20,870 bases of DNA from a virus. Within the stretch, counting starts at the first letter, position 1. Every line of letters begins with the position of its first letter. The translations under genes and the position numbers were made by a program. Below, piece by piece: positions 1,308 through 12,860 of this stretch. The DNA lies in the IMG/VR virus record IMGVR_UViG_3300024048_000018, positions 1 to 20,870 of that record, one strand, 5' to 3'. The notes below the pieces were generated by a model that saw nothing but the letters and a program-made list of their open reading frames with translations, was not told the DNA's origin and searched no databases.

Positions 1308-1780
1308 AATGGTTTTTTTAATTTAATTCTATATGCCCATTCGTTTCTTATTTCATCTTCGATCTTTATAAATAATCTGGCGTCTGTATTTCTTTTTGCA
1401 AATGCATTTCCGAACTTATTCCCTTTAGTAAAGTACCAGAATGTTCTTGCTGTCCATGGTGATAGGTGAGTCGGGTCCTGATAAAATTGAACTGTGCCTG
1501 CCATCGGTACTTCGATATGAAGTATTCCTCCTGGCTTTAATAATTCATAAAAAAGCTTCATTGCTTTTACTCTGTTCTCTGGTTTCAAATGTTCTAAAAT
1601 ATGAAATGCTCTGATCTCATCTACTGTTCCTATCGCTATCCCATGTTGATTATAACTCCTCGTTATAAAATCTTCATTTTCTATGTCAGCACAAATATCT
1701 GCCCCGACTTTAGGATCCTTATCAACTGTGATATAATCTTCAAAATTTTTTCTTCCTGATCCGATATCTAGTTTAATCAT
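1304..1780 (-). CDS. Class I SAM-dependent methyltransferase
   Basis: A 158-residue Rossmann-type methyltransferase. Motif I is LDIGSG at residues 4-9, an acidic residue follows at D20, the HILEHL segment (60-65) is typical of the Methyltransf_11/25 type, and LKPGGILHIEVP (81-92) is the post-motif strand. There is no DPPY/NPPY motif, so a DNA N6-adenine or N4-cytosine methylase is unlikely; a small-molecule, sugar or protein substrate fits better. The start at 1780 has GGAGGG about 10 bases upstream and overlaps the replication gene by 8 bases. The substrate cannot be deduced here. Confidence 0.8.
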   Translation of the reverse strand: MIKLDIGSGRKNFEDYITVDKDPKVGADICADIENEDFITRSYNQHGIAIGTVDEIRAFHILEHLKPENRVKAMKLFYELLKPGGILHIEVPMAGTVQFYQDPTHLSPWTARTFWYFTKGNKFGNAFAKRNTDARLFIKIEDEIRNEWAYRIKLKKPL

Positions 1781-2555
1781 TTTTCTTTTCCCTCCATTCT
1801 ATTTTGTCTTCGCTCTCTGCAAATGTTTTCCATTCGCCATCTACTAAAACTTTCCAAATACCAAACATCTTTTTCATTCTATCTCCTCTGAAGTATGGAT
1901 CCTTTTCTGGCTCTTTCATTTTATCTCCTTTGTATTCGTCTTCCCATCGTCTTTGGTTTATATAAGTCGTTGGATGTGGGAAGTATTTTCCATTTTCTTT
2001 TTGCCATGCTTCAGTTGGTTTTCTCTCCTCGAGGTCTTTCAAAATAATATCTAGCAATTCTTGACTTGGTTTTAGTAGTTTCCACTTAGCGAGTGCCTTG
2101 TCTTTGGCCACTCTTCTTTTGGGATGATATGCTTTTAAGAAAACATCAAATTTATAATCTGATGTATCTTTTTTCTTTTTTGGTTTACCTCCTCCGAATA
2201 ATGGTATCTGTCCTTGCACTTGTTTCTCAAAATATTCCTCAATGATGTCCTGCGCTTTTAATAAATCTATTCTAAAATGAACTGTTGCCGGTTGCCCTGC
2301 TATCTTCTCTTCTAATACTCCAAGTTTCTTTCCTATTCCTCTGGCTGTTTCCTGTTCTTTTCTCGACAGTCCTGTTTCTTCGTATATATCTTTTTGCGTT
2401 TTATAAATCCATCCATCCGGATCCTTTGTTTTGTCGTGCCAATAATATAATTGTGACCATAGTATTCCTAGCTTAACCGATCCAACTGCTTTTGCCACGA
2501 TCGCATTGTATGCAACTGGTCGTTTTAATAATTCCGTGATGATTGTTTGCTTCAT
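1773..2555 (-). CDS. Phage replication initiation protein (O-like, winged helix)
   Basis: A 260-residue protein with two recognisable parts. Residues about 25-100 form a winged-helix domain (LWSQLYYWHDKTKDPDGWIY, TGLSRKEQETAR), as in DnaD-like and phage O-type initiators. Residues about 133-210 carry the C-terminal block common in phage replication proteins (F..AYHPKRRVAK, A...WK.LKP, FPHPTTYINQRRWEDE). The linker contains QIPLF (116-120), which fits a sliding-clamp-binding QxxLF motif. Translation is read from the ATG at 2555, not the in-frame ATG at 2609, because a consensus promoter lies between them and its predicted +1 is the A of the 2555 ATG. It is the first gene of the third early unit. 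Confidence 0.8.
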   Translation of the reverse strand: MKQTIITELLKRPVAYNAIVAKAVGSVKLGILWSQLYYWHDKTKDPDGWIYKTQKDIYEETGLSRKEQETARGIGKKLGVLEEKIAGQPATVHFRIDLLKAQDIIEEYFEKQVQGQIPLFGGGKPKKKKDTSDYKFDVFLKAYHPKRRVAKDKALAKWKLLKPSQELLDIILKDLEERKPTEAWQKENGKYFPHPTTYINQRRWEDEYKGDKMKEPEKDPYFRGDRMKKMFGIWKVLVDGEWKTFAESEDKIEWREKKND

Positions 2556-2561
2556 GATTAT

Positions 2562-2601
2562 ATTATAACTTATTTTTAATATTTCTCCAAGTGGATTACT
2601 T
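2562..2601 (-). promoter_or_regulatory. Early promoter P3 with operator-like motif; leaderless
   Basis: The -35 TTGGAG (2585-2590), a 17-base spacer and a perfect -10 TATAAT (2562-2567) lie upstream of the replication gene. Six bases separate the -10 from the ATG, so transcription should start at the A at 2555. The motif AAGTAATCCACTT (2589-2601) overlaps the -35 and matches, with one change, the motif at two other promoters. It is a short imperfect dyad (AAGT/ACTT) containing a DnaA-box-like core. Confidence 0.8.
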
Positions 2602-2602
2602 T

Positions 2603-3073
2603 TTACCAATCTTTATAACTAACTTCTCGAGGATACGGGATATACAAGGATAGTCCACTATCTTGGCTTAGTCCGCTTGGCTTGGTTGGTAAGGCGGCCC
2701 AGTGAATACACTTCTCCCAGTATTCCCGGTATGCTTTGTCGTTTAATTCTGTCGTACTCATCACTCTTTCGTATCTATATTTTCCATCCTTTGATCTTTC
2801 CTCTGTCTTAAGATGTAGCCGTCTGAGTAATTCGTGCGCTTCTTGATCCGAGATGTCCATCGCCTCTGCTACCATTCTAACTACCACTGCATGATAAAAC
2901 TTTTCCTCCTGGCGTGATCTGTTTTTCGAGTATGGTTTTACTATTACCTGAAGTCGTTTGCCATCGTATGGTATTAAATGATTGCTGAATCTTCCCTCGT
3001 CGTTATAATAAAGCCTACCTCCTCTGGCTGTTGCCTCCCACTTTGGATATATTTTGCGTTCTTTTAGTGCCAT
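2603..3073 (-). CDS. NinB-like recombination-associated protein
   Basis: A 156-residue protein whose layout resembles the NinB/Orf group of phage recombination accessory proteins: an N-terminal beta region, a short stretch rich in Arg, Ser and Gln (NRSRQEEKFYHAVVVRMVAEAM) corresponding to the RS.QN-type segment, a helical SDQEAHELLRRLHL region, and a C-terminal YREYWEKCIHWAA helix. In lambda, NinB/Orf binds single-stranded DNA and helps load the recombinase; that role is an inference here. It shares a transcription unit with a Bet protein and exonuclease, which fits. The ATG at 3073 has no Shine-Dalgarno and the context AAAAAC-ATG. The stop at 2603 directly abuts the operator of the next promoter. 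Confidence 0.55.
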   Translation of the reverse strand: MALKERKIYPKWEATARGGRLYYNDEGRFSNHLIPYDGKRLQVIVKPYSKNRSRQEEKFYHAVVVRMVAEAMDISDQEAHELLRRLHLKTEERSKDGKYRYERVMSTTELNDKAYREYWEKCIHWAALPTKPSGLSQDSGLSLYIPYPREVSYKDW

Positions 3074-3079
3074 GTTTTT

Positions 3080-3556
3080 TTATATTTTATTTTGGTATGC
3101 AAACTCGCCATATAATTCTATTGCCTTTTTATTATAAACGAGTGCGGCTTCTATTTCGGTTTTGAACCAACCAAGCCAATATCTTTTATAATCACATGTT
3201 ATATAAGCACGCCACGGCTTGATCTTTGCTTTTCCTGTATTCCAATGATTCTTTTCATATGTCACTCCTTGATATTTAGAATAAATTGCAGTGCCCTTTC
3301 TTTTCCCTCTGTGCGAAGCCTGCGAATGTGTTACTTTTAATAAATTATTTTTTCTACAATCCAATCTGTTCATATTTATATGCGTTATTTCTGTATTTCC
3401 ACAAATCAGTAAATTAACCATTTTAATTGCTTGTTGTGTATCGTTTCTAATAGGGTTCCCGTTTTGGTCTAACCCCCACTTAAATCGACTTAAGTAAGGA
3501 TAATCCTCGTCATCTACTATTGCAAATTTTCCTTGTGTTAATGGTATCTTTTTCAT
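3080..3556 (-). CDS. AP2/HNH homing endonuclease-like protein, degenerate HNH
   Basis: A 158-residue protein. Residues about 45-80 correspond to an HNH homing core (THINMNRLDCRKNNLLKVT), but the usual YxHR of the first strand reads IKMV and the DHIN motif reads THIN, so first-strand His and metal-site Asp are absent. Residues about 93-155 form an AP2 DNA-binding domain (YSKYQGV, WRAYI, YWLGWFKTEIEAALVYNKKAIELYG). The start at 3556 is chosen because GGGGGAGG lies just upstream; an in-frame start at 3583 would place this Shine-Dalgarno inside the gene. The SD contrasts with its SD-less neighbours and suggests acquisition. Probably a mobile gene now acting only by binding DNA, or inactive. Confidence 0.75.
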   Translation of the reverse strand: MKKIPLTQGKFAIVDDEDYPYLSRFKWGLDQNGNPIRNDTQQAIKMVNLLICGNTEITHINMNRLDCRKNNLLKVTHSQASHRGKRKGTAIYSKYQGVTYEKNHWNTGKAKIKPWRAYITCDYKRYWLGWFKTEIEAALVYNKKAIELYGEFAYQNKI

Positions 3557-3558
3557 AC

Positions 3559-3903
3559 TTAGTACCTCCCCCACGGGTCCCATTCCCCGAACTTCTTATT
3601 TAATAATTCCTTGATCTCTAATAAATCTATTGCCTTTGAATACTTTTTTAATGTTTCGTTATCTGCTCGATTGAACATGATCCAATTTAATCTTGTTTTA
3701 ATCTCTTGCTCTTTTTCTCTATCGTGTATTGATTTGGCCATCGGCAGTATGCACCATTTCTCATTCACTTGTTTGCCTGCGAATATAAAATTGTGATGCC
3801 ATTCTATTTTTTCCTGTATTCTTGTCCTGCCTGTTATGCAACATCTATGATACCACATATCTATCTCAAGTTCCTTTTTTAATTTTTGTGGGATTGCTCT
3901 CAT
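3559..3903 (-). CDS. HNH-type (WHH) phage protein
   Basis: A 114-residue protein with a CC..G...Q..IEWHHNFIFAGKQ core (double His at 36-37), a later Trp-CILP segment and H60. This is a recurrent phage family in which a WHH motif is followed by N.ILP...IH. It resembles a compact HNH fold and could be a nuclease or a structure-specific recombination factor; catalysis is not proven. The ATG at 3903 overlaps the stop of the TM2 gene as TAATG, so it is preferred over the in-frame ATG at 3915. No Shine-Dalgarno is present, and translation is probably coupled to the upstream gene. Confidence 0.6.
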   Translation of the reverse strand: MRAIPQKLKKELEIDMWYHRCCITGRTRIQEKIEWHHNFIFAGKQVNEKWCILPMAKSIHDREKEQEIKTRLNWIMFNRADNETLKKYSKAIDLLEIKELLNKKFGEWDPWGRY

Positions 3904-4127
3904 TAGTTCGACCATTTAGTTATTACATTTCCTTGCTTGTCTTTGAATGCTCCGGCTAATATCATAATCCAATCTATCAATGTCCACAGCCCGAATCCTC
4001 CGAGCGTGAGTAACATCAGGATTCCGGTGCCGACTTTTCCCACATAAAATCTATGTACACCAAGTCCTCCGAAGAATGTGCATAGCAGAAACGCTATGAT
4101 CCTTAATTTTTTTGATTCTTGTTTCAT
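3903..4127 (-). CDS. TM2-domain membrane protein
   Basis: A 74-residue protein that is essentially one TM2 domain. A first membrane helix with FFGGLGVHRFYVGKVGTG (about residues 17-36) leads into a second helix (LTLGGFGLWTLIDWIMIL, about 40-58), then a short FKDKQGNVITKW tail. The HRFY and G-rich turn between helices are hallmarks of the family. It is predicted to sit in the cytoplasmic membrane. Its place between an exonuclease gene and an HNH-like gene in a recombination unit is odd; superinfection exclusion or membrane attachment of a complex are guesses. The start context is TAA-AAAC-ATG without Shine-Dalgarno. Confidence 0.85.
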   Translation of the reverse strand: MKQESKKLRIIAFLLCTFFGGLGVHRFYVGKVGTGILMLLTLGGFGLWTLIDWIMILAGAFKDKQGNVITKWSN

Positions 4128-4131
4128 GTTT

Positions 4132-4731
4132 TTATAATAATTTATCCTCGCACATTTTACCTATGGCCTCCCATGCTTTTTTAATTCTCACTTCCATCTT
4201 TAGTATGTCCGATAGTTTTCTCTCTGTCCTTATTCTATGTATATCTCCTGTGAGTTCCACCTTGCCGTCTGGTAGCTGTTTCGTAGGGATATAAACCAAT
4301 TCTATGTCTTGAGGTATCTTGCCCGTCCTGGCCCTGATTATCGTACAATACAGAGTGATCTGTCCGTGGTTGTCTACTTGCTTTTGGCTCCATGATGTTT
4401 GGCCTGTTTTATATTCTTTGAATGCACTCAGGTTTTTCTTGGCCGTATCTGCTTTCCCGTATAATGGTATCTCTGTTTTTCCTAATTTCAGCGTTGCCTC
4501 GAGCTCTGCTTCCATAATTTCAAATTTAGGTATTTGAGATATTAATAAATCTTTAATCGGATCGCCTGTTGCCTCTTCTTTTTCAAGCGCGTCTGCTATT
4601 TCTTTTCCGAATGCCATCCCTCGATTGATTGACATTCTACTCTCATCGATATAAATATCCATATATCTTTCCAGTGAGCTTTCAAAAAGCGTGAGTTGAC
4701 TCCATGATAAATATGGTCGTGGTCTTATCAT
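4132..4731 (-). CDS. PD-(D/E)XK exonuclease
   Basis: A 199-residue nuclease of the PD-(D/E)XK (Cas4/AddB/RecB C-terminal) class. Motifs in order: LSWSQLTLFESSLERY (8-23), GMAFGKEIADALE, GKAD with D95, FKEYKTG with E106 and K108, and the Q-rich helix QVDNHGQITLY (118-128). D95, E106 and K108 are the expected metal-binding and catalytic residues. It starts at 4731 overlapping the Bet stop by ATGA, so the two products should be translated together, a typical phage annealase-exonuclease pair analogous to Redbeta/Redalpha. It would resect DNA ends to give single strands for the annealing protein. The four Cys that mark Cas4 iron-sulfur clusters are not seen. Confidence 0.8.
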   Translation of the reverse strand: MIRPRPYLSWSQLTLFESSLERYMDIYIDESRMSINRGMAFGKEIADALEKEEATGDPIKDLLISQIPKFEIMEAELEATLKLGKTEIPLYGKADTAKKNLSAFKEYKTGQTSWSQKQVDNHGQITLYCTIIRARTGKIPQDIELVYIPTKQLPDGKVELTGDIHRIRTERKLSDILKMEVRIKKAWEAIGKMCEDKLL

Positions 4732-5639
4732 TTTAATAATTCTTTTAATCTTGAATCAATCGCTTTGATTAATTCCCTTTTTTGTGTTGCGTTATACTTC
4801 TTGGATCCGTTGACCTTTCCTTTCATGTCTTCTAATCCGTCAAACTTGGCTCTTGCAATCATTCCTTTCACTTTATGAAATTCACTCTCTACCTGTTTGT
4901 TTGGATCTATGGTCGCTCCTCCTTGATCCATTTCTTCTGGTGCGTATAATCCTGATAACTGTTTTGGGAATGCTTTGCGCAATGCTAATGCCTCAGCACA
5001 TTTTCCTAACTGTCCGAATGGCATTTTGTGCCACATGTATCCAATCCTCTCTCCCGGATAATATTCACTCCATCTGGCTGTTGCTGTGAATGCGTATCTC
5101 TCTCCGTTGTCCATTAGCTTATGGACGGTAGCTGTTGCTGATCCTGGCACTTGCATTTTTGTCTTTGCCAATTCAACTTCTTTTTCATCCTTAAATACTA
5201 CATCTTCTGATCCTGCATATCTTCCGGACATTTCAGCGATTGATCTAAACCCATCAATGCCGACTTGGATCACTCCTACTTCTCTACCTGCTTTTGAATC
5301 CCATCTCTTCACGAAGTGAACTTGTCTGACAAATGGATCTAACTTTGTATTCCTGCATACGGTAATAAATAACTTTAACTCATCATCTGTTGCTCCTTTG
5401 GCTACCTGTGTCTTGATTAATTCTATCTGTGGTCTTGTCAATCTATCAAATGGATTTTCTTCATTCTTTGTTATTACATTCTGAATAACTTTGACTTGAT
5501 TCTTCTCTTTAGCTGATAGCTCCTTTGGTTCTACCACTATCTCTGGTTTTACTTCTTTGACCTCTTTTTCCTTTTTAGGTTTGATCTCCTTTTTCTTAGG
5601 AGAGGTCTTGATCATTTTATCTTTTGGTGATTTTTTCAT
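4728..5639 (-). CDS. bet: Bet/RecT-family single-strand annealing protein
   Basis: A 303-residue recombinase-type annealing protein. After a Lys/Glu-rich, probably disordered N-terminus (1-46), the conserved core shows GATDDELKLFITVCRNTKLDPF (82-103), a VGIDGFRSIAEMSGRYAGSE block (126-145) and a W..MPFGQLGKCAEALALRKAFP block (203-225) ending GLYAPEEM, all typical of phage recombination protein Bet. It would anneal complementary single strands produced by the exonuclease encoded directly downstream. The start at 5639 overlaps the upstream gene by 23 bases, has no Shine-Dalgarno and carries the ACAATCAC leader motif just before ATG. An internal ATG at residue 9 is an alternative start. Confidence 0.92.
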   Translation of the reverse strand: MKKSPKDKMIKTSPKKKEIKPKKEKEVKEVKPEIVVEPKELSAKEKNQVKVIQNVITKNEENPFDRLTRPQIELIKTQVAKGATDDELKLFITVCRNTKLDPFVRQVHFVKRWDSKAGREVGVIQVGIDGFRSIAEMSGRYAGSEDVVFKDEKEVELAKTKMQVPGSATATVHKLMDNGERYAFTATARWSEYYPGERIGYMWHKMPFGQLGKCAEALALRKAFPKQLSGLYAPEEMDQGGATIDPNKQVESEFHKVKGMIARAKFDGLEDMKGKVNGSKKYNATQKRELIKAIDSRLKELLK

Positions 5640-5937
5640 GTGATTGTTTTTTAATTAATTTTTTACGTCCGAATACGTCGTATGGTGATTTTGACATCAC
5701 TCGCTCATCTCCGGACTTTTCAATAAATATTATTTGCTTGTCATCGACCTTGACAAACACATCGCAAATTTCTGGCCAGTTATAATCTTTAGGAACTACA
5801 TGTCCTACTATTAATATAAATTTGCCTTCAACTATTAAGTCAAATTTAATAGCTTCTGTTTCTGAAAAATCCTTTACGCTATATCCAAACTTCCATAGCT
5901 TTTCTTTTACTTTTGTGATTGCTTCTTTTCTTTTCAT
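5617..5937 (-). CDS. Unknown first gene of the Bet/exonuclease unit
   Basis: A 106-residue protein. Residues about 30-65 alternate hydrophobic and charged residues (KFDLIVEGKFILIVG, CDVFVKVDDKQIIFI), suggesting a small alpha/beta fold; the order of D, K and hydrophobic strands faintly recalls restriction-endonuclease-like folds, but I would not assign catalysis. The ATG at 5937 lies six bases after a perfect TATAAT, so the mRNA is predicted to be leaderless. Being first in the unit and overlapping bet by 23 bases, it probably serves in recombination or its control. Confidence 0.7.
   Translation of the reverse strand: MKRKEAITKVKEKLWKFGYSVKDFSETEAIKFDLIVEGKFILIVGHVVPKDYNWPEICDVFVKVDDKQIIFIEKSGDERVMSKSPYDVFGRKKLIKKQSHEKITKR
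5640..5660 (-). promoter_or_regulatory. Shared leader motif before bet
   Basis: Read on the minus strand, this is TTAATTAA, an A-run, then ACAATCAC directly abutting the ATG. Almost the same element precedes the genes starting at 10380 and 10675. It replaces a Shine-Dalgarno sequence and could be a translational enhancer or the target of a shared translational regulator. At bet it lies inside the coding sequence of the upstream gene, so coding constraint alone does not explain the match. Confidence 0.45.
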
Positions 5938-5943
5938 AGTTTT

Positions 5944-5983
5944 ATTATAATCTATTTATAATTTATTCTCAAGTGGATAACTT
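5944..5983 (-). promoter_or_regulatory. Early promoter P2 with operator-like motif; leaderless
   Basis: The -35 TTGAGA (5967-5972), a 17-base spacer and the -10 TATAAT (5944-5949) are followed by six bases and then the ATG at 5937, so the predicted +1 is the first base of the start codon. AAGTTATCCACTT (5971-5983) overlaps the -35 and is identical to the motif at the promoter at 10742. The motif also encodes the last codons (KLST, stop) of the upstream HNH gene. Confidence 0.82.
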
Positions 5984-6586
5984 ATTGAATTTTTTAGAAT
6001 TACATTTTCCGCATAATGCTTGTATGTTCTGCTTGTCGCCACACTTGTATCTTGGTTTGTTTTTATTCGACCACTCGATCCATTTAGAAATTGGAATAAC
6101 ATGGTCTATTGTGAGTTTCTTTTTGAGTCCACAAATTTTACATTTGTTATTTTGAAACTTTTTTATTTCTTTCCATTCTCTTTCAGTAAGAGATCCTCCT
6201 GACATTATTTCTCTTTCTCTTCTTCGATTGTATATGATGGCTCTTTTTTCTGGGTTATTTTTTGCCCACTTATTTTTCGATTCTCTGACCTTTACGATAT
6301 TCTTTTCGTTCCATAATTTTTGTTTTAACATTATCTTTTTTCTATTCTTAATTCCATATTCCCTGTCTGATTTTTTCTTATCATATCCACCTTTCCACAT
6401 CGGATTTTTTGAGCCCATTTTTGATGCTGACAAAGTCGGGCACTTCTTGCCTGCGTTCCAAGTCGGTTTTCCTTTTTTGAATTTATATTTACATTCATTA
6501 GAACAAAATACACCCTTTCTAACCTTTATGCGACTTGAATATGTTTCAAATTCTTTCCCGCAAATTTTACATATAACTTTTATCAT
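5969..6586 (-). CDS. HNH homing endonuclease with NUMOD3 motif
   Basis: A 205-residue nuclease. The N-terminus has a zinc ribbon (C6, C9, C28, C32). A NUMOD3-like DNA-binding segment follows (about 46-67, with GSKNPMWKGG), then a basic helical linker. The C-terminus has a full HNH core: C149/C152, LTIDHVIPISK (D161, H162), N187 and C192/C195. All expected HNH residues appear present, so it may be active. NUMOD3 is typical of intron- or intergenic-encoded homing enzymes, implying mobility. It sits between the helicase gene (stop at 6591) and promoter P2, and its last codons form part of that promoter's -35 and operator. There is no Shine-Dalgarno. Confidence 0.85.
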   Translation of the reverse strand: MIKVICKICGKEFETYSSRIKVRKGVFCSNECKYKFKKGKPTWNAGKKCPTLSASKMGSKNPMWKGGYDKKKSDREYGIKNRKKIMLKQKLWNEKNIVKVRESKNKWAKNNPEKRAIIYNRRREREIMSGGSLTEREWKEIKKFQNNKCKICGLKKKLTIDHVIPISKWIEWSNKNKPRYKCGDKQNIQALCGKCNSKKFNKLST

Positions 6587-6590
6587 ATCT

Positions 6591-8048
6591 TCATTTTATC
6601 ATACGATGGGACAATCTGTCAATCAATTCATTAAAAACCGAACCGTGCCTTACTTTCTTTTTGTTCCCGTCAAGTATTTCATTAACAATTCCCTCTTTTA
6701 CTCCCAACAATTTCATAATGTCCTCTTCTATTGTGTCCTTGCAAATATAATAATAAACATTTATCATTCTGTTTTGCCCAATTCGATGGGCTCTTGAAAT
6801 CGCTTGATTGTGAACTTCCGGTGTCCAATCCATATCAGCAAATATTACTATGCTTGCCTCTGTTAGCGTGATCCCAACTCCTCCTGCTTTTATGTTTGCT
6901 ACGAATACTTTAACTCTTTCGTTCTCTTGAAACGAATCAACTGCTTTTTGTCTATCGTTCTGTTTTGTTGCTCCTGATAAAACTGCGACATCTATCGGCT
7001 CCATTTTTGGCTTTCCATAGTTATCTGTTTCTCCAAAGTCATATTTTATCTTTTCCATTCCTGCTTTAATGTTCTCGAGTGTTTTAACGTATTGAGTGAA
7101 TACTATAACTTTTGATCCTTGCTCGATTGCGTTCTGCGCGTCTGTTACTATCTGATCAACTTTAACTCTTGAGCATACCTGCTTTAATTTCTGAATCTCT
7201 ACCAACTGTCTTGTGGCCATTATGTTTTTTATATTCTCCGGTGGATTCATTTTGAGGTATTCCATGTATGAATCCCATGCATTTTCGTATTCTCTCCTTT
7301 GACTTGGGTTCATCTTCACTTCGATCACATCAATTATCTTTGCAGGCAGATTCAACACTTCATTCTTTTTTCTCCTGATCATGCATTCAATTAAATTCTT
7401 TCTTAATATATTTAGGTTTGTTGCTCCGCTCTCATCCCAGAATCTAATTGGCGGGCCGAATCTTCTTATCAATGTTTTAAGATGTCCACCACAAAACATT
7501 GTTGAGAATCTACTTCGCGCTCCCTTTCTTATCGTTATTGGATGTTCGATTGCCACAAGTAAATTCCATAATTCTATTGGCCTATTTAATAATGGCGTTC
7601 CTGTTAAGCAATAAACTCTGTCTGCCTCTTTGACTATTTCTATTGTTGCCTTTGCTCGAATGCTCCTGCCTTTAATATAATGCGCTTCGTCAAGAATAAC
7701 ATTCTGAATACGATCCTGCTTTACCATTCCTCCAATCCATTCTTTGTGATAATTAATAACATCGTAATTGATTATGATCCATTTGCTTTTCTCTGCCTCT
7801 TCCTGCTTTTCTTGGCTGAGTGTCCTGCCATTTAATATTGTTATTCTATCCCATGGTCGCGCGTTCTTTATCTCTCTTTGCCAGTTAATCTTAATCGATG
7901 CCGGACATATTACTATTGTATTGCCATGATCCTCTACTGCCTTTATGGATTGAATCGTTTTACCAAGCCCCATTTCATCTGCGAGGATAGCTTTTTTGTT
8001 TTTCTTTAAGAACTCTATTCCAGTTTTCTGGTGATCAAATAATTTCAT
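6591..8048 (-). CDS. SNF2-family DNA helicase/translocase
   Basis: A 485-residue superfamily 2 ATPase of the SNF2 type. It shows a Q-like FDHQKTGIEFL start, Walker A ADEMGLGKT (23-31), DEAH box (120-123), LTGTPLLNRP (148-156), SGATKQNDRQKAVDSFQ, and AGGVGITLTEAS with a C-terminal SRAHRIGQ (motif VI). The length is that of a bare two-lobe SNF2 core without accessory domains, as in many phages. It probably translocates on double-stranded DNA in replication or recombination. Its ATG overlaps the stop of a 50-residue gene as TAATG, so expression is coupled. Confidence 0.93.
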   Translation of the reverse strand: MKLFDHQKTGIEFLKKNKKAILADEMGLGKTIQSIKAVEDHGNTIVICPASIKINWQREIKNARPWDRITILNGRTLSQEKQEEAEKSKWIIINYDVINYHKEWIGGMVKQDRIQNVILDEAHYIKGRSIRAKATIEIVKEADRVYCLTGTPLLNRPIELWNLLVAIEHPITIRKGARSRFSTMFCGGHLKTLIRRFGPPIRFWDESGATNLNILRKNLIECMIRRKKNEVLNLPAKIIDVIEVKMNPSQRREYENAWDSYMEYLKMNPPENIKNIMATRQLVEIQKLKQVCSRVKVDQIVTDAQNAIEQGSKVIVFTQYVKTLENIKAGMEKIKYDFGETDNYGKPKMEPIDVAVLSGATKQNDRQKAVDSFQENERVKVFVANIKAGGVGITLTEASIVIFADMDWTPEVHNQAISRAHRIGQNRMINVYYYICKDTIEEDIMKLLGVKEGIVNEILDGNKKKVRHGSVFNELIDRLSHRMIK

Positions 8049-10380: not shown

Positions 10381-10402
10381 ATTTGTGATTGTTTAATTAA
10401 TT
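10381..10402 (-). promoter_or_regulatory. Shared leader motif before the coiled-coil gene
   Basis: On the minus strand, TTAATTAATTAA is followed by ACAATCAC, then AAAT and ATG at 10380. It matches the elements before bet (5639) and the ArdC-N-like gene (10675). No Shine-Dalgarno is present. Its upstream part overlaps the last codons of the preceding gene. Confidence 0.45.
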
Positions 10403-10675
10403 AATTTTACTAACTTGTGGCTGAGCAAATAGGAATACTGGTCTTGGATATGTATCTCCCGTTTCCTCGTCCTTTATAAACGTTACTGACTTGATTGCTT
10501 TTTCTCCTTTTTTAACTGAGTACCCTCTTTGCCTCCATCCATTAAATGTGAAGCAGTTTTCTGTTGGATTATATTTCTGCGCTTCTTTTTTTCCAAACCT
10601 ATTTTTGATTTCTGCTCTTACAAATAATGCTGATCTGCCTCCCTTATAAATTGATGTTAATTTTTTTGTTTTCAT
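10397..10675 (-). CDS. ArdC N-terminal-like small protein
   Basis: A 92-residue protein resembling part of the ArdC N-terminal (single-stranded-DNA-binding) domain. The key run is a Trp (W47) followed by GYSVKKGEKAIKSVTF (51-66), the W..RG..V.KGEK.I signature, and then PVFLFAQPQV (79-88), matching the LF...Q.. strand. The metallopeptidase part of full ArdC is absent. Full ArdC proteins protect entering DNA from restriction; a DNA-binding or anti-restriction role is inferred by likeness only. As the first gene after the promoter at 10742 it would be among the earliest products. Confidence 0.6.
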   Translation of the reverse strand: MKTKKLTSIYKGGRSALFVRAEIKNRFGKKEAQKYNPTENCFTFNGWRQRGYSVKKGEKAIKSVTFIKDEETGDTYPRPVFLFAQPQVSKIN

Positions 10676-10700
10676 GTTTGTGATTGTTTTTTTAATTTAT
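10676..10700 (-). promoter_or_regulatory. Shared leader motif before the ArdC-like gene
   Basis: On the minus strand, ATTAA, an A-run and ACAATCAC precede AAAC-ATG at 10675. The untranslated leader from the predicted start near 10735 is about 60 bases long and also contains an AAAGGAAAGG run with no start codon nearby. The ACAATCAC element recurs before two other early genes. Confidence 0.45.
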
Positions 10701-10741
10701 TTTAATTGTTCGCTTTCGACCTTTCCTTTTGTTCTAACTCT

Positions 10742-10781
10742 ATTATAAGTCATTCATAATACTATTGCAAGTGGATAACTT
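10742..10781 (-). promoter_or_regulatory. Early promoter P1 with operator-like motif
   Basis: The -35 TTGCAA (10765-10770), a 17-base spacer and the -10 TATAAT (10742-10747) drive the early genes below 10675. AAGTTATCCACTT (10769-10781) overlaps the upstream edge of the -35, exactly as at 5971-5983. Unlike the other two, this promoter leaves a leader of about 60 bases. The core TTATCCACT differs from the DnaA-box consensus TTATCCACA only in its last base. Confidence 0.82.
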
Positions 10782-10807
10782 TTTGATTAAAAAATAATAA
10801 ATTACTG

Positions 10808-10834
10808 TTGTATTCTCTTGTTGTATTCTCTTGT
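10808..10834 (+). repeat. 13-bp direct repeat, two copies
   Basis: TTGTATTCTCTTG occurs twice in tandem (10808-10820 and 10821-10833). It lies between the AT-rich stretch next to P1 and the 22-bp repeats. It may be a protein-binding site of the same control or origin region; strand is arbitrary. Confidence 0.7.
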
Positions 10835-10846
10835 ATATAGAAGAGT

Positions 10847-10912
10847 ATGTCCGAATAGTGCAAACTCAATGTCCGAATAGTGCAAACTCAATGTCCGAAT
10901 AGTGCAACCTAA
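10847..10912 (+). repeat. Three tandem 22-bp repeats (iteron-like)
   Basis: ATGTCCGAATAGTGCAAACTCA is present at 10847-10868 and 10869-10890, followed by a third copy at 10891-10912 that diverges only near its end (CAACCTAA instead of CAAACTCA). The 22-bp period is two helical turns, so bound proteins would line up on one face, as at plasmid and phage iterons. No spacers separate the copies. The array sits 77 bases upstream of the P1 -35, next to an AT-rich stretch and a DnaA-box-like motif, and falls in the only long gene-free interval (10676-10930). An origin or a regulatory array is inferred. Confidence 0.85.
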
Positions 10913-10930
10913 TTGTGTAAGATAAAAAAA

Positions 10931-11404
10931 TTAATTCCTTACTCTCCCATATGATAATGGTTTTCTATTTAATGAATTGATGTAATCTTTAACTGCTTTA
11001 ATGATATTTTTATGGTATAGTCTTTGCGATCCAATCATCACCATCTCTATATTATATTTTGCGGCGGCATGGTTTATTATTCTAGCATCAACACTAATAA
11101 TTTCTTTAATATCTTTTTTATTTAATAATCCAGTCTGTTTGCGGTCTACCATCATGTTATATTTTGGCCTGCATTTTAGGATTAATTGAGATTCTAATTT
11201 ATCCATTTCTTTGTATCCACTACACTTAATATAAAAAGCTCGACTGAATTGCATCGCGTATTTATGATTCGCTATTCTGCCTATTAAATTAGTTTTGCTT
11301 TTGCCTACATATAATATTTCTCCGTCGTCGTTAGTTAATATGTATACTCCAATTTTACTTGGTATCTTTATTTCCTCTACTTCTTTGATTTGTATTATGT
11401 TCAT
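10931..11404 (-). CDS. GIY-YIG endonuclease with C-terminal helix-turn-helix-like region
   Basis: A 157-residue nuclease. The GIY-YIG core covers about residues 15-85: GVYIL (19-23), YVGKS (32-36), R43, H47, catalytic-type E71 and the closing N83 in PKYN. Residues about 103-142 (VDARIINHAAAKYNIEMVMIGSQRLYHKNIIKAVKDYI) resemble a MerR/excisionase-like helix-turn-helix and may bind DNA. It is a single-gene unit with its own promoter, an operator-like inverted repeat and a strong Shine-Dalgarno (AAGGAAAGGA), unlike its neighbours. This and its intergenic position suggest a free-standing homing gene, which might also repress its own promoter. Confidence 0.88.
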   Translation of the reverse strand: MNIIQIKEVEEIKIPSKIGVYILTNDDGEILYVGKSKTNLIGRIANHKYAMQFSRAFYIKCSGYKEMDKLESQLILKCRPKYNMMVDRKQTGLLNKKDIKEIISVDARIINHAAAKYNIEMVMIGSQRLYHKNIIKAVKDYINSLNRKPLSYGRVRN

Positions 11405-11480: not shown

Positions 11481-11514
11481 AAAACCAAACACCGGCCAGA
11501 ATGCCAGTGTTTGG
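11479..11514 (-). terminator. Intrinsic terminator of the late operon
   Basis: A 12-bp stem with one mismatch (11485-11496 with 11503-11514) and a six-base loop is followed on the minus strand by six Ts (11484-11479). It lies downstream of the small membrane protein gene ending at 11566 and just before the GIY-YIG promoter, separating late from early transcription. Confidence 0.88.
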
Positions 11515-11900: not shown

Positions 11901-12860
11901 TTATTTAGATTTAATTACTGCCCAAGGGTCAACGATCTCATATCCGTCCAGGTTCTCTTTCCATTCTATTTGACCCTTAACGATCACCCCTGCCTCATGT
12001 AAATCATCTAAAATTATAGGATTGAAGATGTGACGAAGCTTTCCATCTTCTCCAACCACGTATTGTTTCTTATCTCTTTTGTCGCCTATTATTTTTAACA
12101 TAAATATTTTGCTTGGTGGATTCGGCATATCTAATAAAAAGGTTATATCGTATAACTCATATTTATTAGCGTTGTAGTATTTATAGTCAGTATCTCCCTC
12201 CCATAAATACCAATCCGAACCATCGCCATAGCTGTTAATGAAATGAATAAATCTTTTCCCGTCTTTTTTTCCGTATCCCTCAGCGTATACGCAGTGTCCT
12301 GACCACCCAGAAACAAATCCTCCAAATTGCCAGATCACTTGTTTCATGTTTTCCCAGTTCTCTTCAGTGAATGGAAATGCTGTATCCACGTAGACAAACT
12401 TTTTGCTCTTGTACGTTTCCATTATAACTGGCTTGTCTAACCATCCCTTATCACGCATGAACTCCTCTGTGGTGCGTGTTAAGTTTTCATATGATGGAAC
12501 TATCGACTCGAGGGCGCAACCAGTGTTTACGGCAAATTTAGCCCCATTTCTGATGTATGCTCCTCCATCTGGTAGTGCTATCATCGAATAAATTGATTTT
12601 GCAGATAAATCTATTTTTTTCAGTGTTTCTATCAAATTGAGCATCTCTTGATATTTTGACCATCCCTGTCCGACACATGAAAGGCTCAATCCTTGATGTT
12701 CTCTTTTTAATATTCCGTATCTCTCCTCGTTTGAAAATCCAACATTATAACTCGGACAGTTTGGATCCGGCACGAATGAAATATCTCCAAGCTTTATATC
12801 TCGATGATCATCTGGTTGTTTTTGACACCCATTATAATTTTTAGGCAATCTTTGTATCAT
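11901..12860 (-). CDS. Papain-like (C1) cysteine peptidase, possible endolysin
   Basis: A 319-residue protein. A papain-type catalytic set is visible in order: oxyanion Gln Q56, active Cys C62 in LSCVGQGW, His H189 in GHCVYAEGY and Asn H-bond partner N209 in INSYGDGSDW. The start DIKLGDISFVPD resembles the lead-in of other phage C1 proteins. A second domain (about 254-319) has KQYVVGEDGKLRHIFNP, a short module that resembles repeat modules of bacterial surface proteins and may bind a surface. There is no signal peptide. Its place between tail fibre and holin-like genes suggests lysis or wall penetration; a structural-protein protease is the alternative. Confidence 0.8.
   Translation of the reverse strand: MIQRLPKNYNGCQKQPDDHRDIKLGDISFVPDPNCPSYNVGFSNEERYGILKREHQGLSLSCVGQGWSKYQEMLNLIETLKKIDLSAKSIYSMIALPDGGAYIRNGAKFAVNTGCALESIVPSYENLTRTTEEFMRDKGWLDKPVIMETYKSKKFVYVDTAFPFTEENWENMKQVIWQFGGFVSGWSGHCVYAEGYGKKDGKRFIHFINSYGDGSDWYLWEGDTDYKYYNANKYELYDITFLLDMPNPPSKIFMLKIIGDKRDKKQYVVGEDGKLRHIFNPIILDDLHEAGVIVKGQIEWKENLDGYEIVDPWAVIKSK

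Follow-up and report, generated by a model that had tools for sequence, protein, structure and literature searches.

Initiation of replication in bacteriophage lambda and in iteron plasmids involves initiator dimers on dyad iterons, distortion of an adjacent tract and its melting, loading of the helicase and help from transcription (PMC5043065, PMC7466680), and the lambda origin (ori-lambda) is activated by DnaA-stimulated transcription (PMC3985674). Here we analyzed a 20,870-base viral record (the window, meaning this whole stretch of DNA), whose genes lie on the minus strand, and within it a gene-free interval of 255 bases (10676-10930) flanked by two minus-strand open reading frames (table 1). 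An initial annotation had proposed this interval as a candidate replication origin. That proposal is supported by a composite of iterons and 13-mers that follows the O-like initiator and lies inside the initiator gene in distant phages. Judged by these sequence comparisons, the element is very likely the origin at which a tailed phage, whose hosts are probably Patescibacteria, starts theta-type replication with its own O-like initiator.

Read along the minus strand, the interval contains three iterons (TTGCACTATTCGGACAT), two 13-mers (AAGAGAATACAAC), an AT-rich tract, GTTATCCAC and the promoter TTGCAA-17-TATAAT. The iterons and the 13-mers, 14 bp beyond them, form two linked modules, each occurring once in the window sequence. 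More generally, the composite consists of dyad iterons at steps of ~22 bp (two helical turns), followed 9-17 bp on by two tandem 13-mers; it is single in each sequence examined and accompanies an O-like initiator. An Rfam scan of the window gave no match.

Table 1. Coordinates of the features of the proposed origin, its flanking genes and the initiator gene in the window.
Feature	Position	Strand	Description
O-like replication initiator, proposed iteron-binding protein	1773..2555	-	Start ATG 2555; predicted winged-helix N-terminal domain
Variant box of O-gene promoter	2591..2598	-	TAATCCAC; TATAAT spacing about as at the origin promoter
First early-operon gene, ArdC N-terminal-domain-like	10397..10675	-	PF08401, E 2.5e-5
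Early promoter TTGCAA-17-TATAAT	10742..10770	-	Drives the early operon, facing away from the iterons
DnaA-box-like motif	10770..10778	-	TTATCCACT, one mismatch from TTATCCACA; read as promoter element
AT-rich tract after the 13-mers	10780..10806	.	T- or A-rich tract in most lineages, weak in G005
Two tandem 13-mers, proposed strand-opening element	10807..10832	-	AAGAGAATACAAC; top-scoring place in the window
Iteron 3, closest to the 13-mers	10847..10863	-	TTGCACTATTCGGACAT, imperfect dyad TGCAC-N5-GGACA
Iteron 2	10869..10885	-	Identical 17-nt core, 22-bp spacing
Iteron 1	10891..10907	-	Identical 17-nt core, 22-bp spacing
Open reading frame bordering the gap	10931..11404	-	GIY-YIG domain

The wider setting of the interval offers several separate observations. 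A strong terminator-like hairpin with a T run (11485-11514), after the holin-like gene, separates late from early transcription. The gene in the lysis position varies, encoding in the window a 319-aa protein without a Pfam match (11901-12860) and in the relatives L012 (1397-1879), L006, L008 and L013 a shorter, amidase-like protein. Between the helicase gene and the gene at 5617-5937 lies an HNH-type endonuclease gene (5969-6586); its absence from that place in L012 suggests a homing insertion. The contig L016 overlaps the left 2,761 bases of the window at 99.96% identity and runs on to terminase genes, which are preceded (2590-7733) by genes resembling glycosyltransferases, a LicD-like enzyme and a cytidylyltransferase-like enzyme.

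The three tandem 22-bp repeats described by the initial annotation are present at the positions and the start-to-start spacing given in table 1. Their 17-nt core is the same in all three copies, with the third copy 88% identical over 26 nt, and no further core was found elsewhere in the window even when three mismatches were allowed (chance expectation 0.12). A three-copy set was reached in none of 100 shuffles of the window. Each iteron is also an imperfect dyad, TGNNC-N5-GNNCA, a property previously overlooked; the pattern occurs five times in the window and five times in the relative G005 (31.7 kb), the array accounting for three of these and spanning 44 bp in both. The site thereby shows the dyad-symmetric tandem iterons of a lambda-type origin, with imperfect symmetry and a putative role in initiator binding. 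The iteron sequence diverges widely among lineages, the imperfect dyad being kept in most. When iteron matrices were trained with one lineage left out, the top match genome-wide was the held-out array in five of seven lineages (the window, L012, G004, G005 and G165, the last of these tied), and the matrices failed on G008 and G163. An exact-iteron search of viral contigs returned two chance matches inside unrelated sequence, which were discarded.

The 13-bp direct repeat, annotated before as a mere component of the interval, is exact (about 10806-10832) and proved to be the most conserved module, more strongly conserved than the iterons. Training units for the 13-mer matrix were picked by eye, and the held-out contigs were excluded from training. 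With a matrix trained on other clades, the site in the window ranked first, none of the 41,688 positions scoring higher, and its score was reached in 0 of 200 shuffles. Leave-clade-out matrices placed the tandem 13-mers as the single best place in all seven held-out contigs, with no position of the 18,552-63,302 per contig scoring above them and with a distance to the iteron array of 9-17 bp in each. The consensus across phages is CAGAGAnTACnAC. The six contigs with both the element and the O-like gene scored 24.4-34.5; the best score was 18.2 among 39 loci (341 kb) that share only the holin-like gene. An interpretation of the 13-mers as a DnaA-trio was inconsistent with the window units, which by inspection have no TAG/TAA run. 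The AT-rich run noted earlier is likewise present. About 2% of window positions equal or surpass it in 50-bp AT content, and the run is therefore unremarkable by itself; it probably extends the predicted unwinding region. Tandem 13-mers and AT tract together would represent the unwinding element that a lambda-type origin carries beside its iterons.

Related viral contigs were recruited via the neighboring early gene and the holin-like gene. The layout of the gap is kept at the head of the early operon in eight phage lineages, with diverging iteron sequence (L006/L008/L012; L013, G004; L015, G005; L024, G008; L079, G163; L081/L082, G165/G166; L083, G167). Loss of the repeats in close relatives that retain the replication genes had been named as evidence that would speak against an origin; wherever a close relative keeps the region, it has the array, with changed sequence. 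As a prospective test we used G167, which was recruited solely by its O-like N-terminal domain and is without the neighboring exonuclease-like gene. Its best 13-mer place, CATAGATTACAACAGAGACTACACAG, directly follows three 22-bp iterons. Among distant loci sharing only the holin-like gene, the element was absent from all 15 inspected. The holin-like protein has further relatives, mostly in genomes of Patescibacteria (among them Nomurabacteria, Taylorbacteria and Paceibacterota), and on this indirect ground the hosts are probably Patescibacteria. Searches of Patescibacteria genomes for the exonuclease-like gene, made to reach phage relatives, gave no match and then one distant match. In L079 (G163), the 13-mers and the boxed early promoter may be separated by a short transcription unit (~360-570) that has a promoter-like sequence of its own and a terminator-like hairpin.

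The O-like protein reported 8 kb away was confirmed as a member of PHROG 9773 ("replication initiation O-like", E 2e-31), providing the phage-encoded O-family initiator of a lambda-type origin. The ATG at 2555 was taken as its start because a longer TTG start at 2609 would overlap the promoter. From the gene to the 13-mers is 8,277 b in the window, and across its group the element lies 7.9-10.1 kb upstream of the O gene in transcription order. Four N-terminal domains of the group are 62-66% identical to that of the window, for which a winged helix is predicted (pLDDT 79); an AlphaFold model of the full-length protein (pLDDT 39) was set aside. In Foldseek the plasmid initiator structures 4pt7 and 4pql rank first, a result that is not significant (E about 0.01), and generic winged helices score as well as plasmid initiator domains. 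The fold is common and is by itself no proof of iteron binding. A search of PDB sequences with the domain gave no match. The protein also has no match to Pfam Phage_rep_O (PF04492), which lambda O does match, and the two are linked through PHROG families 678 and 9773 only. The O-like gene (2555-2567) and the gene at 5617-5937 (5937-5949) both start ~6 nt after TATAAT, and both mRNAs would therefore be leaderless.

A partition (centromere-like) or packaging (pac/cos) site could be built of comparable repeats, since tandem iterons occur in plasmid centromeres and repeats are possible in packaging sites. Either identity is extremely improbable here: the element tracks the O-like initiator, and its layout of 13-mers and AT tract would be unexpected for both kinds of site; no partition gene was seen among the scanned proteins of the window or L016, and the terminase genes lie elsewhere (L016 8256-10293), ~17 kb along in gene order.

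The position of the element relative to the initiator gene differs among phages. Within the window the O gene contains no iterons, and its best 13-mer score is 4.0, compared with 34.5 at the intergenic site; throughout the group, O genes are without the element. With the same 13-mer matrix we scanned annotated phages whose O-like N-terminal domain is 33-50% identical, over stretches of 8-41 kb. The best place falls inside the O-like gene in 14 of 16 of these distant phages, whose hosts include Klebsiella, Acinetobacter, Vibrio and Synechococcus, and in most of them the 13-mers directly follow ~23-bp repeats, as in lambda. In Klebsiella phage Kp4882-1, for example, the score is 34.7 in the O gene versus 8.9 outside. 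The weakest homologues, those of Fusobacterium phage phiBB and Lactobacillus phage Ld17, have no 13-mers in the O gene. In lambda the best place comes directly after iteron 4 with a marginal score (6.4 vs. 6.3). Repeated in-gene AGAnTAC units lie in different reading frames in several phages, indicating therefore a constraint on the DNA, not on the protein. A Patescibacteria genome (L100, 11983-12915) encodes an O-like protein whose gene carries 13-mers and iteron-like repeats (resembling TTGTGGGAAACCCACAA); the phylum thus includes both arrangements. As the O genes of the window's group are without the element, and distant relatives have the in-gene form, the simplest reading would be that in this group an O-type origin moved out of its initiator gene to a non-coding site 8-10 kb away. 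GC skew, including fourfold-degenerate skew, passes the site with no inflection or change of sign. Since every gene lies on one strand the skew is monotonic, and as a locator it neither supports nor refutes an origin here.

The annotated promoter, too, is present on the minus strand (table 1). The dyads of the 22-bp array are situated ~75-140 bp upstream of this strong early promoter in most lineages, and at ori-lambda an interaction of RNA polymerase with O protein is described (PMC3985674); the array might accordingly be read as an operator or upstream activator site, at which a phage regulator on the dyads controls early transcription. This we consider improbable, as distant phages carry the composite inside O coding sequences and not at an early promoter, and in G163 the iterons and 13-mers stay together with the boxed early promoter ~200 bp further. 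The elements are moreover single per sequence examined and absent from other promoters, a pure operator would leave the 13-mers without a function, and no group-wide repressor or activator gene was seen among the scanned proteins.

The DnaA-box-like motif that had been counted among the origin parts does lie by the promoter, but as an origin part it did not hold, since it recurs at other promoters. With ~5.7 one-mismatch matches expected per window by chance, the motif alone is not significant. TTATCCAC and TATAAT occur at the same spacing at 5973-5980 of the window and at other promoters of the relatives, and several relatives have the box displaced by 9-10 bp, close to one helical turn. A scan of ten Patescibacteria-type genomes found it 32 times at promoter spacing versus 7 at control spacing; in a 145-genome sample, genomes with a box match numbered 57 versus 39. 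From this recurrence at promoters and enrichment at promoter spacing in Patescibacteria genomes, the motif more likely belongs to the early promoter than to the origin, and we rejected it as origin-specific evidence. Boxes specific to the origin, as in a DnaA-dependent origin, were not found; G005 does have three boxes near the site. The promoter type GTTATCCAC(TTG)-N-TATAAT recurs in the window phage (10771-10778, 5973-5980 and 2591-2598) and in relatives, and such promoters are possibly DnaA-linked promoters in Patescibacteria. A DnaA-linked promoter beside the origin would still fit, because the lambda origin depends on DnaA-stimulated transcription (PMC3985674).

The mechanism we propose borrows its steps (dimer binding, melting, helicase loading, transcription help) from lambda and iteron plasmids. 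Using the winged-helix domain, dimers of the O-like protein would bind each iteron and, stacked together, form a DNA-bending O-some. The resulting strain would melt the AT tract together with the 13-mers, and the replicative helicase would load onto the opened strand. The early promoter, starting just past the AT tract and firing away from it, would leave negative supercoils in the unwinding region, and the box abutting its -35 element would link firing to host DnaA.

The locus would represent a sequence-supported replication origin for Patescibacteria phages, and would show that an O-type origin need not sit within the O gene. That the 13-mer occurs across phages from several phyla suggests a shared opening step, and a short 13-mer matrix can locate origins in uncultured phage genomes. 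The chances seem evenly balanced that CAGAGAnTACnAC is an undescribed signal for strand opening or helicase loading in O-like phage origins and that origin and initiator gene have become uncoupled in one group of Patescibacteria phages; its extension over Patescibacteria, proteobacterial and cyanobacterial phages, with a role comparable to that of oriC 13-mers or the DnaA-trio, might equally prove right or wrong. No described Patescibacteria-phage origin and no mention of this 13-mer was found in open-access literature, represented mostly by titles and abstracts, which is weak evidence of novelty.

Among described systems, ori-lambda resembles the window in its dyad iterons at steps of ~20-24 bp (the lambda iterons are annotated in L118) and AT-rich unwinding tract, and in its phage-encoded O-type initiator, nearby promoter and DnaA tied to that promoter (PMC5043065, PMC7466680, PMC3985674). 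It differs in that the window origin is non-coding, 8-10 kb from the O gene, and has only three iterons; the tandem 13-mers are strong in the window but marginal in lambda, and the O-like protein misses Phage_rep_O. Because the window resembles lambda in having dyad iterons, binding by dimers is expected, not by monomers. The iteron plasmids RK2, F, P1, R6K and pSC101 share direct iterons in helical phase and an A+T-rich opening region, which in RK2 has 13-mers, and several have DnaA sites nearby (PMC5043065); the window initiator, in contrast, belongs to the phage O-like family, and its DnaA box is better explained by the promoter. Phages of PHROG 9773/678 (Kp4882-1, Acinetobacter TRS1, Aaphi23, Burkholderia DC1 and others), whose initiator N-terminal domains are about 35-50% identical to that of the window, likewise have ~22-23-bp repeats followed directly by 13-mers (CAGAGAnTACnAC), with the element placed within the O coding sequence in these phages, whereas the window has it between genes, where the early operon begins.
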